From positions 1 through 43,748 of the IMG/VR virus record IMGVR_UViG_3300036846_000472: DNA of 43,748 bases; one strand, given 5' to 3'. This document shows positions 1 through 43,748 of the stretch, piece by piece. The position numbers were made by a program, and so were the translations under genes. The notes below the pieces were generated by a model. The model was not told where the DNA came from. It saw nothing but the letters and a program-made list of their open reading frames with translations, and made no database searches. This DNA is from a virus. Within the stretch, counting starts at the first letter, position 1. The number at the start of each line of letters is the position of its first letter.

Positions 1-49
1 GTGCTCCGCGAGAAAGGGCCGGAAAACGCGTGACCACGGAAATAGTTGT
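1..49. repeat. Terminal direct repeat, left copy
   Basis: These 49 bases recur at the right end (43700-43748) with one difference: G at 28 versus A at 43727. This is what a circular assembly of a cos, pac or circularised genome gives, so the unit length is about 43,699 bp. The variable base falls in the last codon of a short frame ending just before terS (Ala versus Thr), so it may be true population variation. Confidence 0.9.
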
Positions 50-21351: not shown

Positions 21352-22863
21352 CTATGCCGCGTCTACCCTCGGGCCCGCTTCGCTCCAGCGGAGCCGGGGA
21401 ACGAGGTCGATGAGCTCGGACGCCCTGGGCGCCGTCTCCACCCGCGCAAGGCGCCTCGCGTCCGGCGCCGTCAGGAGCTCGCTCCGGGCAGCGACGGGCT
21501 CCCTCCAACCGACCGCCCGGCGAACGACGACCGCGGCGAACACGAGGGATAGCCAGTGGCGCTTCTCGGCAACCGGGGCCTTCCGGAACACGTCCGGGTC
21601 GAGCTCGTCCGGGAGCTCGGCGCCACTGAGCTCGTTCTCGATCGCCCGGAGCCGGGACTTGGCCTGGCGGAGCTCCTCCTTCGCGTCCTCGACCTCCGCG
21701 TCCAGGATTTCCTTCACGTCCTCGTCGTCGTCATCGAGCTCGACGGCGCGGCGAAGGACCCGCTGGAGGCTCCCCTTCGCGCCGGCGACGTCCTCCTGGG
21801 CGTCCGCGAGGCGCGTGTCATCCGGGAAGGCGATGAAGTCGTGCAGGTGGCGCCGCTCGAACTCGTCCATCACGAGCGCCTCGAGCTCCTCGGCGTTCGC
21901 GCTCGCCGGCGCCGAGCACACCCCGCCGCGGACGTTCGTCTTGCATTGGTAGTACCCGCGCCCGGCGTTGCCGGCGCTCTGGCGGATGAACGGCATTGTC
22001 CGCCCGCAGGAGGAGCAGCGCACGAGCCCGGTGAGCAGGTGCTTCTCGCCGTCGGCGTAGCGCGTTCCCTTGACGCGGTTCGCCTTCTCCCAGAGCTCCC
22101 GGGTGACGATGGCCGGGTGGGCGTTCTCCTTGCGGTAGTCGCCGTGCACCGCGACTCCGGTGTAGACCTCCTTGACGATCACCTTGCGGATCGACTGCGG
22201 CGCCCAACGTGCTCCCGCCGACCGCATCGTGGTCCCCTCGTTCAACCGTGCCGCGATCCTTCCGTTCGACCAACCTGCCGCGCGCAGGTCGAAGATCAGG
22301 TGCACGACCTCCGCCTCCGCGGGCTCGACCACGAGCGCCTGGCCGGGCGCCGGCTTCCGGTACCCGTAGGCGGCGTTCAACGAGACACCCCGCTCCTGGA
22401 CGGCGCGCCGCTGAGCGGTGCGGAGCCCTTCCGCCTTCCGCTGGCGCTCGTCCTCGGCGTATGCGAGCCGAACCGTCGTGATGAGCCCGTTCTCGATCCG
22501 TCCGTCGGGCGTGAGAACCTGTCCGCCGTGCGCGGCGAACTCCCGCAGCATCCCGATCCCGCCCTCCGTGCTCCGCGAGAAGCGGTCCAGGTGCGGGACG
22601 ACGATCCCGGCGATCTGGCCGGCACGGAGCTCCGCGAGCGCCTGCTGGAAGAAGGGCCGGTCGAAGTTGCCGCCGGAGCGGTCCTCATCGACCAGGATTT
22701 CATCGAGGAGCGTGACCCCCTGGGCCCGCGCCACGTCTTGAATCGTCCGACGCTGTTCGTCGGGGGAGATGTAGGTGACGCCATCGCGTCCGCCTTTCTT
22801 GGACACGCGCCCGTAGCCCCGGTAGGGGCGGGAATCGCGCGTCTCGTGGATAAGTCCTGTCAT
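21352..22863 (-). CDS. int: Large serine integrase
   Basis: A 503-residue large serine recombinase that integrates the phage at a bacterial attachment site. The catalytic domain has GYGRVSKKGG with nucleophile Ser21, IVVPHLDRFSRSTEGG with its active-site arginines and LITTVRLAYAEDERQ. The recombinase domain follows (AAYGYRKPAPG ... SIRKVIVKEVYTGVAVHG). The zinc ribbon domain has CSSCGRTM ... YYQCKTNVRGGVC. It is followed by a coiled coil (about 350-420) that controls synapsis and direction. ATG 22863 was chosen over an upstream frame because GGAGG lies 6 bases before it. A phiC31 gp3-like protein at 27082 is the matching directionality factor. Confidence 0.95.
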   Translation of the reverse strand: MTGLIHETRDSRPYRGYGRVSKKGGRDGVTYISPDEQRRTIQDVARAQGVTLLDEILVDEDRSGGNFDRPFFQQALAELRAGQIAGIVVPHLDRFSRSTEGGIGMLREFAAHGGQVLTPDGRIENGLITTVRLAYAEDERQRKAEGLRTAQRRAVQERGVSLNAAYGYRKPAPGQALVVEPAEAEVVHLIFDLRAAGWSNGRIAARLNEGTTMRSAGARWAPQSIRKVIVKEVYTGVAVHGDYRKENAHPAIVTRELWEKANRVKGTRYADGEKHLLTGLVRCSSCGRTMPFIRQSAGNAGRGYYQCKTNVRGGVCSAPASANAEELEALVMDEFERRHLHDFIAFPDDTRLADAQEDVAGAKGSLQRVLRRAVELDDDDEDVKEILDAEVEDAKEELRQAKSRLRAIENELSGAELPDELDPDVFRKAPVAEKRHWLSLVFAAVVVRRAVGWREPVAARSELLTAPDARRLARVETAPRASELIDLVPRLRWSEAGPRVDAA

Positions 22864-22982
22864 CGGTCGCCTCCGAGTAGTGGTTACGCCTTCATGGTAA
22901 CAGATAACCCGCGCCCAACGGGTCGGGTTCGGCAGTACCACCACGGCGCTAGCCGTCTACTAGAGCCAGATCGGGGCCCGGC
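22864..22982. promoter_or_regulatory. Integrase upstream region with two inverted repeats
   Basis: Region between divergent genes. GTTAC-9 bases-GTAAC (22883-22901) lies just upstream of the integrase ribosome site. A wider imperfect palindrome covers 22906-22929 (AACCCG ... CGGGTT, 8 of 12 pairs), which fits either an operator or half of a serine-integrase attachment site. No convincing -35/-10 pair is seen. Confidence 0.4.
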
Positions 22983-33056: not shown

Positions 33057-33273
33057 CTACCACTACCACGCGAACCACATCTCCGCGCCGGCCCGCGGCT
33101 CGAAGCGGGCGGCGCTCAAGGACGCGCGTGACCTCCACGTCGGGCCAGACAACTTCGCGGAGCGCGTCGACGGCAGCGTCGTGACCGGCGAGCTGGTCCG
33201 GGAGCACGGCGTCGAGTTCCCGCTCATCGTCAGGTGCTACCGCGACTGCCGGATCGTCAAGTCCATGCCGTGA
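33049..33273 (+). CDS. Small His-rich protein of unknown function
   Basis: A 74-residue product with an opening YHYHANHIS and a later VRCYRDCRIVK, so a metal site is possible. It overlaps the previous gene by 8 bases and the next by 4. Confidence 0.6.
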   Translation: MPDYHYHANHISAPARGSKRAALKDARDLHVGPDNFAERVDGSVVTGELVREHGVEFPLIVRCYRDCRIVKSMP

Positions 33274-33623
33274 GAGTGCTCGTCTGCGGGTCGCGCGGCT
33301 GGAGCAACGCCGAAGCGATCCGCTGGAGGCTTGCCGGCCTGGCCGCTGGCTCCGTCGTCATCAGCGGCGGCGCCGCCGGCGCAGACACGCTCGCTGACCA
33401 GGCCGCGCGCGAGCTCGGGCTCGCCTCGATCGTCTACCGGGCGAACTGGAAGCGGGACGGCAAGCGCGCCGGCGTCCTCCGGAACCTCCTGATGCTCGAC
33501 TCCGAACCCGCGCTCGTCATCGCGTTCTGGGACGGCACCTCGCCGGGCACCAAGCACACGATCGAGGAGGCCCGCAAGCGGGGCATCGAGCTCGAAATCT
33601 GGGGGCCCGGAGAGGAACGTTAG
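33270..33623 (+). CDS. SLOG-family (DUF2493/YspA-like) nucleotide-binding protein
   Basis: A 117-residue Rossmann-like protein of the SLOG superfamily. VLVCGSRGWSN and VVISGGAAGADTLADQAARE are the two nucleotide-binding glycine loops, with MLDSEPALVIAFWDGTSPGT forming the acidic third loop. Such proteins bind nucleotides or their sugar parts and include possible hydrolases or ligand sensors. It lies 25 bases before the deazaguanine operon and overlaps the gene before it, so a link to base metabolism or nucleotide signalling can be suggested only from context. Confidence 0.82.
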   Translation: MRVLVCGSRGWSNAEAIRWRLAGLAAGSVVISGGAAGADTLADQAARELGLASIVYRANWKRDGKRAGVLRNLLMLDSEPALVIAFWDGTSPGTKHTIEEARKRGIELEIWGPGEER

Positions 33624-33648: not shown

Positions 33649-34023
33649 ATGCCCACCCGCATCGGCAAACAGTTCCGGTTCGAGGCCGCTCACCACCTCC
33701 CGGATCACGACGGGAAGTGCCGGCGCCCGCACGGCCACTCATACCGGGTCGAGGTGACGCTCGCCGGCGACCTCGAGGACGCCGGCCCGAAGAACGGGAT
33801 GGTGCACGACTTCTCCGACGTCTCGCGGTTCTGGAAGCACGAGCTCGAGCCGCACCTCGACCACCAGGACCTCAACCTCACGCTCGCGGACGACTGCGAC
33901 CCGCCGACCGCGGAGCTCATCGCGCGCTACCTCTACCGGCGGTTCATGGGCGAGCTCGGGGATGACGTCGAACGCGTCCGAGTCTGGGAGACGGAAAGCT
34001 CGTGGGCGGAGTACCCGGCATGA
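33649..34023 (+). CDS. queD: QueD-like 6-carboxytetrahydropterin synthase
   Basis: A 124-residue protein of the PTPS/QueD family, converting dihydroneopterin triphosphate to 6-carboxy-tetrahydropterin in deazaguanine synthesis. FEAAHHL with His15, then CRRPHGHSY with active-site Cys24 and zinc ligands His28 and His30. The later LDHQDLN carries the catalytic Asp-His pair and ETESSW the substrate Glu. Length is normal for QueD. It starts the deazaguanine operon, which runs queD-queE-folE-parB-dpdA. Confidence 0.93.
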   Translation: MPTRIGKQFRFEAAHHLPDHDGKCRRPHGHSYRVEVTLAGDLEDAGPKNGMVHDFSDVSRFWKHELEPHLDHQDLNLTLADDCDPPTAELIARYLYRRFMGELGDDVERVRVWETESSWAEYPA

Positions 34024-34754
34024 GCGCGGTCGCGAAGAAGTCGAAGCTCCTGCCCGTCGTTGAAGTGTTCGGCCCGACGATCCAGGGCGAAGGATGGCTC
34101 GCCGGCGCGCCCACCTATTTCGTCCGGCTCGGGGGATGCGACTGGCGCTGTTCGTGGTGCGACTCCCTCCACGCGGTCCTGCCCGAGGAGGTGCGGAAGG
34201 CGGAGCGCCTGGCGGAGGAGGACATACTCATGCGCCTCAACCCCGACGACGCCGAGTGGGTCACCCTCTCCGGCGGCAACCCCGCGCTCCACGACCTCCG
34301 CCCGCTCGTCCACGACCTCCACCGATGGGGGATGAAGGTCGCCGTCGAGACGCAGGGATCGCGGTGGGCTCGCTGGTTCGAGGACGTCGACCACCTCACC
34401 GTCAGCCCGAAGCCTCCGAGCTCCGGGATGGCCGGCGAGGAGGAGCGCGTCCAGGTCGACGCGTTCATGAGCGAGCTCCGCGTCACCCACGAGCTCGCCG
34501 CGTCCCTCAAGATCGTCGTGTTCGACTACCCCGACCTCGAGTGGGCGCTCTGGGTCGCGGACCGCTTCCGGTGGCTCCCGTTCTACATCTCCTCCGGAAC
34601 CCGGTCGCTCGAACAGGAGCCGCTCGAGGCAACCGCGGAGCGCTACCGACAGGTCTGCGAGTGGGTCGCGAAGGCGGGGACGACGGCGAGCCGCCGCGCC
34701 CGCGTCCTCCCGCAGCTACACGTCATCGCATGGGGCCATTCACGCGGCGTATGA
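34020..34754 (+). CDS. queE: QueE-like 7-carboxy-7-deazaguanine synthase
   Basis: A 244-residue radical SAM enzyme that turns 6-carboxy-tetrahydropterin into 7-carboxy-7-deazaguanine (CDG). PTIQGEGWLAGAPTYFVRLG is the family start; the iron-sulfur motif CDWRCSWCD (Cys40, Cys44, Cys47) binds the cluster, followed by LSGGNPAL and VAVETQGSRW, then VSPKPPS. The spacing C-x3-C-x2-C is the usual radical SAM form. ATG 34020 overlaps the queD stop by 4 bases. Confidence 0.94.
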   Translation: MSAVAKKSKLLPVVEVFGPTIQGEGWLAGAPTYFVRLGGCDWRCSWCDSLHAVLPEEVRKAERLAEEDILMRLNPDDAEWVTLSGGNPALHDLRPLVHDLHRWGMKVAVETQGSRWARWFEDVDHLTVSPKPPSSGMAGEEERVQVDAFMSELRVTHELAASLKIVVFDYPDLEWALWVADRFRWLPFYISSGTRSLEQEPLEATAERYRQVCEWVAKAGTTASRRARVLPQLHVIAWGHSRGV

Positions 34755-35341
34755 GCACCCTCGCGCCGATGCTGACGGAGAGCTCGCTCGCCGCCCTAGA
34801 GGACGCCTACCGGGTGATCCTCGCCGCGGCGCTCCACGGCCACGAGGACTACGACGGGATCGCGTCGACGCCGCAGCGCGCCGCGCTCGCGCTCCTGGAG
34901 CTCACCGCCGGCTACGACGTCTCGATCCCGGAGCTCTTCACGACGTTCGAGCGCGACGGCTACGACGAGATGATCGTGGAGCGAGGCATCCCGTTCACCT
35001 CCCTCTGCGAGCACCACCTCCTCCCGTTCACCGGCACCGTCGCGGTCGCCTACGTCCCCGCCGATCGGATCGTCGGGCTCTCAAAGCTCGCGCGGCTCGT
35101 GGACGCCTACGCCCGCCGTCTCCAGGTACAGGAGCGGATGACCGTCCAGATCGCCGGCGCGATCACCGAGCACCTCCACCCGATCGGAGTCGCGGTCGTC
35201 GCGGAGGCCTCGCACTCCTGCATGGCCTGTCGCGGCGCCCGGGTCAGCGGCGTCACCGCGGTCACCTCCGCGCTGTTCGGGTCGCTCCGCTACGACCCCG
35301 CCGCGCGCGCGGAGACGCTCGCCCTGATGGGCATCCGGTGA
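34751..35341 (+). CDS. folE: GTP cyclohydrolase I
   Basis: A 196-residue FolE that makes dihydroneopterin triphosphate from GTP, the first step of the deazaguanine route. SLCEHHLLPFTG (Cys86, His89), VGLSKLARLVDAYARRLQVQ and HSCMACRGARVSG (Cys157 or Cys160) give the zinc site and substrate pocket of the type I enzyme. Length is typical. It is in the operon with queD and queE, so all enzymes from GTP to CDG are phage-encoded. Confidence 0.95.
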   Translation: MSTLAPMLTESSLAALEDAYRVILAAALHGHEDYDGIASTPQRAALALLELTAGYDVSIPELFTTFERDGYDEMIVERGIPFTSLCEHHLLPFTGTVAVAYVPADRIVGLSKLARLVDAYARRLQVQERMTVQIAGAITEHLHPIGVAVVAEASHSCMACRGARVSGVTAVTSALFGSLRYDPAARAETLALMGIR

Positions 35342-36090
35342 ACGCCGCCGGCGTCGTCTCCGAGGTCAAGCAGGTCCCGATCGCGGAGCTCGTCCCGTGG
35401 GACCGCAACCCGCGGAGCATCACGAACGCCGCGCTCGCCGCGCTCGTCCGCTCCCTCGAGGCGGACCCGTCGATGATGCAGGCGCGCCCCGTGATCGCCC
35501 TGCTCGACGGGCGCGTGATCGCCGGCAACCAGCGGCTCCGTGCCGCCGCGCAACTCGGGTGGACGACCGTCCCCGCGGTCTACGTCGACCTGGACGAGCA
35601 GCGCGCGACGACCTGGGCGCTCCGGGACAACAACCCCTACGGCGACTGGGAGGAGGAGAGCCTCGCCACGCTCCTCGCGGAGCTCGCCGCGGACGACGAG
35701 GCGCTCCTGGCGCTCACCGGGTTCTCAGATGACGACCTCCAGGCGCTCCTCCACGCCGGCGACGGAGACGGCATCACCGACCGCGGCACGATCCTCGAGC
35801 TCGCGGACGTCTCGATCGGGGACCCGACCCACCGCCCGGAGAAGGGAGAGCTCTGGAACGTCGGGCCCCACGTCCTCGTCATCGCCGGCGTCTACGACGG
35901 GTGGCCGGCCTGGGCGCCGCTCCTCCAGGAAGGCGACCTCCTCGTGCCCTACCCGACCCCGACGCTCCCGCTCACCGAGCGCGCAGACGTGAACCGGCTC
36001 GTCCTCGTCCAGCCTGACCCGTGGCTCGCCGGCCACCTCCTCGACAAGTACGCCGCCGTCCGAGGGGCCGAGACGATCGCCCGGCGATGA
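35338..36090 (+). CDS. ParB-like protein with degenerate methylase-like end (DpdB-like candidate)
   Basis: A 250-residue protein. Residues about 10-100 are a ParB/sulfiredoxin-like nuclease fold: VPIAELVPWDRNPRSI, the family box GRVIAGNQRLRAA and a YVDLDEQRA strand. Residues about 170-245 (EKGELWNVGPHVLVIAGVYD, LLVPYPTPTLPL, VQPDPWLAGHLLDKY) look like a DNA methylase tail that has lost its catalytic DPPY motif. In known bacterial dpd systems DpdB has a ParB/sulfiredoxin-like domain and works with DpdA. A similar guide or ATPase role here is inferred from the 4-base overlap with dpdA; the protein could also be an ordinary ParB-like accessory. Confidence 0.75.
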   Translation: MNAAGVVSEVKQVPIAELVPWDRNPRSITNAALAALVRSLEADPSMMQARPVIALLDGRVIAGNQRLRAAAQLGWTTVPAVYVDLDEQRATTWALRDNNPYGDWEEESLATLLAELAADDEALLALTGFSDDDLQALLHAGDGDGITDRGTILELADVSIGDPTHRPEKGELWNVGPHVLVIAGVYDGWPAWAPLLQEGDLLVPYPTPTLPLTERADVNRLVLVQPDPWLAGHLLDKYAAVRGAETIARR

Positions 36091-37064
36091 CCACGCCGAG
36101 GCGGAAGGCGACCGGCGGCGGCAGGTTCGACCCCGACGAGGACCTCATCTACTTCCTCGCGGGGCACAACATCGCGGAAATCGCGGAGACGCACATCTGG
36201 AACCTCGTCGCCGTCGACCAACTCACGAGCGGGCCCGGGACCGACTTCCACACGACGCAGGGCCGCGACCTGACCGAGCTCGAGGTGCGCCTGAACGCCG
36301 GCAACCTCGTGCTCCTCGACTCCGGCATCTTCGGGCTCGCGCAGCGTCACCGGCAGAAGCATCCCGATATGGCGCTCCACGACGTCCTCTCCCTGCCGCC
36401 CGAAGCGATCGAAGGGTTCGACTGGCTCTGGGACACCTACGTCACGATCGCGCGCCGGTTCGAGTCCGACCTCTGGGGCTACATCGAGCTCGACCAGGGA
36501 GGCCCGGAGAACAAGCGGCGGATGCGCCGGCGCCTGGAGAAGCTCGGGCTCAGACCGATGCCCGTCTACCACCCGATCAACGACGGGTGGGACTACTTCG
36601 ATGAGCTCGCGCGGGAGTACGACCGGATCGCGGTCGGCAACGTCGTCCACGCGAACCTCAACCAGCGCCGCCACCTCTGCGCGACCCTCTGGGAACGCCG
36701 CCGGCGCTACCCGCACCTCTGGATTCACCTCCTCGGGTTCACGCTCAACGAGGTTGTCACCGTCTACCCGACGTCCTCCTGCGACTCGAGCTCCTGGGTC
36801 TACGCGATCCGGTACGGCGCCCAGAACTCACCCGGAGCTCATGCGATGGGGGACGCGTTCGGCAAGTTCACGACCGGGCTCAGCTACGACCCCGACCTCG
36901 ACCGGCTCGCGCCAGGCGGGCAACGCCGCGGCGTCCACTTCCTCGCCTCCGAAGCGTTCTTCATGCAACGGACGATGCGGGAGCAGCTAGTCGACGTCCG
37001 CCGGCTCTTCGGCGCCGACGCCCTGCTGCCGGCACCCGACCCACGAGAAGGAGTCCGCACATGA
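36087..37064 (+). CDS. dpdA: DpdA-like DNA-guanine transglycosylase
   Basis: A 325-residue protein of the TGT-like DpdA group that swaps guanine in DNA for a 7-deazaguanine base. It keeps the two acids of the TGT mechanism: LVLLDSGIFG with Asp78 (as in the TGT motif DSGGF) and SSCDSSSWVYA with Asp233 as nucleophile candidate. WGYIELDQGG, RPMPVYHPIND and IHLLGFTLNE fit the barrel strands. The TGT zinc site (C-x-C-x2-C) is absent, as in DpdA proteins acting on DNA. It is part of the phage deazaguanine operon. Which of the DpdA subgroups it belongs to cannot be settled by eye. Confidence 0.88.
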   Translation: MTTPRRKATGGGRFDPDEDLIYFLAGHNIAEIAETHIWNLVAVDQLTSGPGTDFHTTQGRDLTELEVRLNAGNLVLLDSGIFGLAQRHRQKHPDMALHDVLSLPPEAIEGFDWLWDTYVTIARRFESDLWGYIELDQGGPENKRRMRRRLEKLGLRPMPVYHPINDGWDYFDELAREYDRIAVGNVVHANLNQRRHLCATLWERRRRYPHLWIHLLGFTLNEVVTVYPTSSCDSSSWVYAIRYGAQNSPGAHAMGDAFGKFTTGLSYDPDLDRLAPGGQRRGVHFLASEAFFMQRTMREQLVDVRRLFGADALLPAPDPREGVRT

Positions 37065-37480
37065 TCCGCACGATCAGCGTCGGCCCGATCCCGATCTTCT
37101 TCACGAACGTCAACCGCCCGATGGGGCTCCGCGCCCACTCCCACTCCGGCGCGGTCACCGTCGTCTACGAGACGACCGGGCGGCACGGCTACCCGAGCTT
37201 CGCCACGACCAACGACGCGCTCGAGGCGCGCGTCCTGGAGCTCACGCGGGAAGTGTTCAAGGACGCGACCAACGAGGACGTGCTCGACCGGCTCTGGGAG
37301 CACCTCGACGGGTTCGTCGCGCCCGAGTGGGAGGAGTGGGGCGGGGACTACCACCTCCACGCCCTGCACCTGGACGTCGTCGGCGTCCACGACGACATAG
37401 GGCACGACGACTCCACCACCCGGTACTCGATCAGCCACGACGAGGCGCCGGCGCGTGAGGGCCCTGTTACGGATTCTTGA
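37061..37480 (+). CDS. Unknown protein closing the deazaguanine operon
   Basis: A 139-residue product whose ATG overlaps the dpdA stop by 4 bases. It contains His-rich pieces (LRAHSHSGAV and WGGDYHLHALHLDVV) that could hold a metal ion, a central helix (ALEARVLELTREVFKDATNE) and an acidic end. I do not recognise the family. Its position suggests it helps in base tailoring, for example change of the 7-carboxy group, or in regulation of insertion. Nothing in the sequence proves an enzyme. Confidence 0.65.
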   Translation: MIRTISVGPIPIFFTNVNRPMGLRAHSHSGAVTVVYETTGRHGYPSFATTNDALEARVLELTREVFKDATNEDVLDRLWEHLDGFVAPEWEEWGGDYHLHALHLDVVGVHDDIGHDDSTTRYSISHDEAPAREGPVTDS

Positions 37481-43589: not shown

Positions 43590-43728
43590 CCTAAGCCGGC
43601 CCTGAGCCCATCAAGGCAACGCCGCCGGCTTTGCCGCCGCAGGCAACGCGCGCGGGTACGGGGTGGGACCCGATCGCGCTCGAAGTGCCGTGGGAGCTAG
43701 TGCTCCGCGAGAAAGGGCCGGAAAACAC
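43590..43728. promoter_or_regulatory. Gap before terS, candidate packaging (cos) region
   Basis: The gap between the membrane-protein gene and terS contains a repeated AGGCAACG (43614 and 43641) around a GC-rich inverted segment (GCCGGC-TTT-GCCGCC). HNH-type phages usually have their cos site just before terS, so this is the best place for it. It is an inference from position; no cut site can be read. Confidence 0.35.
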
Positions 43729-43732
43729 GTGA
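43631..43732 (+). CDS. Possible short ORF leading into terS
   Basis: A 33-residue frame from TTG 43631 with natural-looking protein at its end (DPIALEVPWELVLREKGPEN) and a stop overlapping the terS GTG by 4 bases. There is no ribosome site. The single-base difference between the end repeats changes its last residue. Possibly a coupling ORF, possibly chance. Confidence 0.3.
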   Translation: MPPQATRAGTGWDPIALEVPWELVLREKGPENT

Positions 43733-43748
43733 CCACGGAAATAGTTGT
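43700..43748. repeat. Terminal direct repeat, right copy
   Basis: Second copy of bases 1-49, with A instead of G at 43727. The terS GTG is at 43729-43731, matching position 30 at the left end, so the genome joins here. Confidence 0.9.

Follow-up and report, generated by a model that had tools for sequence, protein, structure and literature searches.

The virus record IMGVR_UViG_3300036846_000472 of IMG/VR (43,748 bp), analyzed here as one whole record and called the window, carries a 7-deazaguanine DNA modification operon at 33649-37480. The operon encodes QueD, QueE, FolE, a ParB-like protein, the transglycosylase DpdA and a protein of 139 amino acids (aa), here named X, in this order (Table 1). 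Neighboring genes are coupled by 4-nt overlaps at all five junctions, as an initial interpretation of the DNA letters (the sequence-only reading) had described for these six genes, and its gene coordinates were confirmed. X takes the slot filled by QueC in related operons. The two ends of the record form a direct repeat with 48 of 49 positions identical, hence the virus genome is probably near complete. A gene not found in the window is therefore close to a gene not found in the phage, and we rejected a fragment artefact as the cause of missing genes. Similarity of the portal and terminase assigns the virus to actinophages.

Table 1. Features of the window and of related loci (handles beginning with L).
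Feature	Position	Strand	Basis
Left terminal direct repeat	1-49	.	48/49 identical to 43700-43748
Large serine integrase gene	21352-22944	-	
YAcAr/SLOG-domain gene	33249-33623		
QueD (6-carboxytetrahydropterin synthase), 124 aa	33649-34023	+	PF01242 E 1.9e-34; TIGR03367
QueE	34020-34754	+	TIGR03365 233.5 bits vs cut-off 206.1; phrog_2076 E 1.6e-41
FolE (GTP cyclohydrolase I), 196 aa	34751-35341	+	PF01227 E 1.8e-58; TIGR00063
ParB-N domain protein, GTG start, 250 aa	35338-36090	+	PF02195 E 1.2e-7
DpdA, DNA guanine transglycosylase, 325 aa	36087-37064	+	phrog_887 E 9e-23; identities, tree, alignment
X, predicted T-fold QueD-like protein in QueC slot, 139 aa	37061-37480	+	Alignment n=20, AF2 model, Foldseek, slot pattern
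Right terminal direct repeat	43700-43748	.	48/49 identical to 1-49
Phosphoribosyltransferase-like genes	L002:2736-3263, L011:4639-5037, L022:3723-4109, L023:3678-4061, L048:12283-12720		By eye
Tandem DpdA pairs	L052:132-1810, L059:3973-5774, L063:2552-4308, L068:6011-7791		
Glycosyltransferase-like gene of phage ACP17	L079:4963-5988		Weak similarity

The established pathway of FolE, QueD and QueE stops at 7-carboxy-7-deazaguanine (CDG) (PMC13329287). All three CDG-making enzymes expected of a DpdA-type system score above their NCBIfam equivalog cut-offs (QueD TIGR03367 93.2 against 89.25; FolE TIGR00063 183.5 against 181.6), which bears out the earlier claim that they are intact. The alignment of QueD retains the zinc ligands His15, His28 and His30 as well as Cys24, Asp71-His72 and Glu114. 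DpdA matches the phage family phrog_887, which resembles tRNA-guanine transglycosylases (TGT), and finds neither a TGT match in Pfam nor a match of note among PDB sequences. With two cysteines only, the protein has no CxCxxC zinc motif, and the aspartates of DSG and CDSSS conserved among DpdA relatives are kept in the alignment. The earlier assignment as a TGT-like DpdA without the tRNA-type zinc site is consistent with all of these findings.

A ParB gene is present together with DpdA in 64 of 71 related loci, and the ParB-like protein is a probable DNA-targeting partner of DpdA. It is similar over residues 8-182 to phrog_498, a family annotated as methyltransferase, and by eye its C-terminal part resembles a decayed methyltransferase. 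The gene roles first proposed need revision on two points: the ParB-like gene is conserved along with the other operon genes, and the last gene, X, represents a conserved family.

Profile searches of the whole record revealed no QueC (PF06508; positive controls matched), no YhhQ preQ0 transporter (PF02592) and no UbiD (PF01977). No QueF (PF14489) was found above the cut-off in the record, and the sub-cut-off match was FolE itself. The absence of QueC and QueF already apparent to the sequence-only reading holds in these searches. The window has neither the QueC of the preQ0 subtype (Rosebush/CAjan), nor the QueF or QueF-like enzyme of the preQ1/archaeosine (G+) subtype, nor the YhhQ transporter of the preQ0 salvage subtype.

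The slot after DpdA is filled by different families in related phages. QueC-bearing actinophages (Godines, StAugustine, PenguinLover67, Finch and Sonali) have the order ParB-DpdA-QueC-QueD-QueE-FolE, with a small extra gene between ParB and DpdA in StAugustine and small extra gene(s) also in Finch. Bipper and Nadezda show ParB-DpdA-X-QueD-QueE-FolE with one extra small gene after ParB. A further family, Y (phrog_17812, 110-125 aa, function unknown), follows DpdA in many phages and is widespread with at least 592 confirmed viral loci. Among 49 viral loci fetched with the window DpdA alone, the gene after DpdA was Y in 45, QueC in three and YhhQ in one, and none of the 49 held more than one of X, Y and QueC. 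If relatedness is ignored, the three QueC would all fall among the four loci without Y with a probability of 2.2e-4. A profile (hidden Markov model) search covering every open frame of 172 loci found X in 24, Y in 133 and both in none, where the loci include overlapping fetches of the same record as well as fragments and the counts are not independent. No QueC exceeded the cut-off in 50 further Y-selected records or in nine Y phages with sequenced genomes, while CAjan and 9g, used as QueC controls, matched. X, Y and QueC are strictly exchanged at the slot after DpdA.

A missing QueC could be supplied by the host, in which case the phage DNA would carry preQ0 and X would be an accessory gene. 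Full-length QueC is indeed present in 11 of 81 Streptomyces genomes sampled. However, queuosine genes are entirely missing from mycobacteria (PMC6884629), yet the same QueC-less operon with X occurs in phages of Mycobacterium smegmatis. A Streptomyces genome carrying an X operon shows only a partial QueC match over 68 positions. The X phage and viral records tested contain neither QueC nor a preQ0 transporter, and neither X nor Y co-occurs with QueC in any locus or record tested. Supply of QueC by the host is very unlikely given these observations. Of the alternatives raised by the sequence-only reading, an operon that ends with CDG and lacks its own QueC, with a last gene that probably processes CDG, is retained, and the host-supplied QueC is not favored.

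The window combines X with a DpdA of another lineage. A quick-method tree, which contained no tRNA TGT, groups the window DpdA among phage DpdAs and places it, like that of L078, inside the Y lineage and away from the remaining X loci. The window DpdA is 48-53% identical to the Y-type DpdAs of L017, L019, L020 and L032 (over 229-288 aa) and about 30% identical over about 126 aa to the DpdA of L051 and similar X-type DpdAs. The window X is nevertheless 72% identical to X of L051, whereas QueD, QueE and FolE of the two loci share 35-48% (35% for QueD and QueE). X and DpdA have diverged in parallel within the X lineage (78% and 70% identity, respectively, between L051 and L059), hence the pairing in the window is not just explained by slow evolution of X. 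A Y-type DpdA next to such a similar X indicates that the X gene moved alone onto a Y-type DpdA. In the tree, QueC loci are likewise scattered over separate points of the Y lineage. Because one DpdA lineage works with X, Y or QueC, the gene comparisons suggest that X and Y perform a job alternative to that of QueC.

X forms a distinct family of small proteins. Searches of Pfam, PHROGs and NCBIfam gave no match of note (the PHROGs scan returned other weak matches), and neither did PDB sequences. Homologs with 51-52% identity are found in the Mycobacterium phages Bipper, Cracklewink, Typha, Hilltopfarm and Nadezda, and further homologs in 19 viral contigs (36-76%) and one Streptomyces contig (71%). 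All homologs with readable context sit in deazaguanine operons, and DpdA is followed by X as the next known gene in 20 of 22 loci counted; the two exceptions are a cut contig (L072) and a rearranged locus (L077). X might still be an unrelated passenger or regulator in an operon that modifies no DNA. Such a role is extremely improbable, as X was seen only in deazaguanine operons in all searches, lies directly 3' of DpdA in nearly all loci counted, and is accompanied by key enzymes that are all intact. The gp73 proteins of the Gordonia phages Frokostdame and Yeezy were considered as distant relatives of X and rejected; they are replication-initiation-like and the X profile gives no match.

An alignment of 20 X sequences shows the invariant residues N16, N18, H26, H28, T50, T70, N71, E72, D111, H115 and T120, and X has no cysteine. 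The alignment-based AlphaFold2 (AF2) model reached a predicted local distance difference test (pLDDT) score of 86.5 and a predicted template modelling (TM) score of 0.80, compared with a pLDDT of 46 for a run without alignment. The modelled topology b-b-a-a-b-b matches that of solved T-fold enzymes. Nearly all of the best 42 Foldseek matches of the model in the PDB are T-fold enzymes, including PTPS, QueD, dihydroneopterin aldolase (FolB) and urate oxidase, with TM scores to the target of up to 0.65. The fold call is made because T-fold enzymes fill the match list uniformly, as no match falls below an E-value of 1e-3. Judged from strand order in the model, X H26xH28 would correspond to QueD H28xH30 and X T70-N-E72 to QueD T87-A-E89, placing HxH at the start of strand 2 and TxE at the start of helix 2 in both proteins. 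N16 and N18 of X would occupy the place of the first zinc histidine of QueD (His15). X differs from QueD in lacking counterparts of the nucleophile Cys24 and of the Asp71-His72 dyad, and a profile comparison of the two gave no link. Taken together with the gene comparisons, X is best read as a T-fold protein resembling QueD that would work on CDG where other operons use QueC.

Y resembles X in being a small T-fold-type protein of QueC-less deazaguanine operons (e.g., in Acidovorax phage ACP17 and Cellulophaga phage phiST), in the same slot and beside the DpdA lineage to which the window belongs. Y is far more common than X and, in contrast to X, aligns by profile with QueD along its length (hhalign probability 86.5, E 4.6e-6). 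Y retains the first zinc histidine and the HxH motif and lacks the nucleophile cysteine of QueD.

We suggest that X removes the carboxyl group of CDG to yield 7-deazaguanine, with a probability of about 0.5. FolE, QueD and QueE would convert GTP to CDG, which X would bind in a T-fold pocket of the pterin/purine type. A metal held by the HxH pair together with an acid such as H115 or D111 might then promote decarboxylation. DpdA would insert the product in exchange for guanine, giving 7-deazaguanine in phage DNA (dDG), and the modified guanine would shield the DNA from host restriction. Chemistry of the QueC or QueF type is unlikely for X because the protein has neither a cysteine nor a recognized ATP-binding domain.

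Several points weigh against decarboxylation by X. The Foldseek E-values are modest (best 2.3e-3), and X has no profile link to Y (hhalign probability 0.7-1.4). In X, asparagine would replace a zinc ligand of QueD (counted as the third), so that metal binding is uncertain. Decarboxylation was chosen because a small T-fold protein without ATP site or cysteine has few options for chemistry on a carboxylate, and a pure role in binding or delivering CDG suits the same facts. In tubercidin synthesis of Streptomyces, a CDG-derived decarboxylation has been proposed, but its substrate would be the ribotide and its catalyst a UbiD enzyme (PMC6112128).

In the main alternative, DpdA might insert CDG itself (dCDG in DNA), and X and Y would bind CDG without catalysis and either pass the acid on to DpdA or determine its base specificity. 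The position of X and Y directly 3' of DpdA, the T-fold pocket kept without the catalytic cysteine of QueD, and the suggestion of CDG for Bipper in the 2019 survey (PMC6884629) are consistent with direct insertion. QueC-type operons, however, need no such partner, and with one DpdA lineage using QueC, X or Y, direct insertion must assume a partner required for CDG only. The invariant polar residues of X are also typical of an active site. Direct insertion of CDG appears somewhat unlikely on balance.

X could also make another 7-substituent from CDG (an amide, a conjugate or a later modification in DNA), so that the final base would be neither CDG nor 7-deazaguanine. Among T-fold enzymes, those of the QueF family work on the substituent at position 7 of deazaguanines, and the present data fix no chemistry. 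X lacks, though, the cysteine for QueF chemistry and a recognizable ATP site for amide formation, making another substituent unlikely. It is quite unlikely that X is a new T-fold enzyme family, independent of both QueC and Y, whose product is an undescribed 7-derivative of CDG in DNA distinct from dDG and dCDG.

DpdA systems are well established, as is their role against restriction (PMC6884629). The Rosebush-type preQ0 operon (Godines and others), with preQ0 measured in the DNA of Rosebush (dPreQ0; PMC6884629), shares with the window the gene set and coupling around DpdA but has QueC in the slot taken by X. Hutinet et al. 2019 noted that Bipper lacks only QueC and is possibly CDG-modified (PMC6884629). 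The remark in the sequence-only reading that a carboxylated base would be unusual in an actinophage was consequently overstated. The Bipper group (Bipper, Cracklewink, Typha, Hilltopfarm and Nadezda) has the same genes as the window without QueC, yet differs in gene order, in a DpdA of another deep lineage and in a more distant X. Cui et al. 2023 (Nucleic Acids Research) reportedly described phages with dDG and dCDG in their DNA and predicted a decarboxylase, DpdL; as proposed for the window, these phages are said to combine CDG-derived bases with a lack of QueC. DpdL may be Y or possibly X. As far as could be checked, family X, its T-fold prediction, the strict exchange of X, Y and QueC, and a phage mixing a Y-type DpdA with X are new.

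The puzzle of a missing gene becomes a testable claim, namely that a family of 139-aa proteins, whose slot is elsewhere filled by a common sister family, performs a step alternative to QueC. Experiments are already feasible, since isolated Mycobacterium smegmatis phages (Bipper, Typha and Nadezda) carry X. Should X prove to decarboxylate CDG, a fold known for pterin chemistry would include a small decarboxylase that is not a UbiD enzyme. If the slot rule (X, Y, QueC or YhhQ) is true, the DNA base of hundreds of phages would be predictable from gene order.

Further observations concern related operons and the remainder of the window. In five Y-type operons, a phosphoribosyltransferase-like gene recognized by eye (motif VVDDIYxTG) adjoins QueE and is reminiscent of TubE, which serves as CDG phosphoribosyltransferase in tubercidin synthesis. 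In ACP17, the gene immediately preceding Y shows weak similarity to glycosyltransferases, and a glycosylated deazaguanine is conceivable. Four X operons contain a tandem DpdA pair before X, possibly forming a DpdA heterodimer as in eukaryotic TGT. The YAcAr/SLOG-domain gene of the window lies 25 nt upstream of QueD and was rejected as a member of the system, as it was seen in no other related locus. The phage encodes a large serine integrase along with a tail sheath gene, and given the integrase, this phage with a DNA modification operon is probably temperate.

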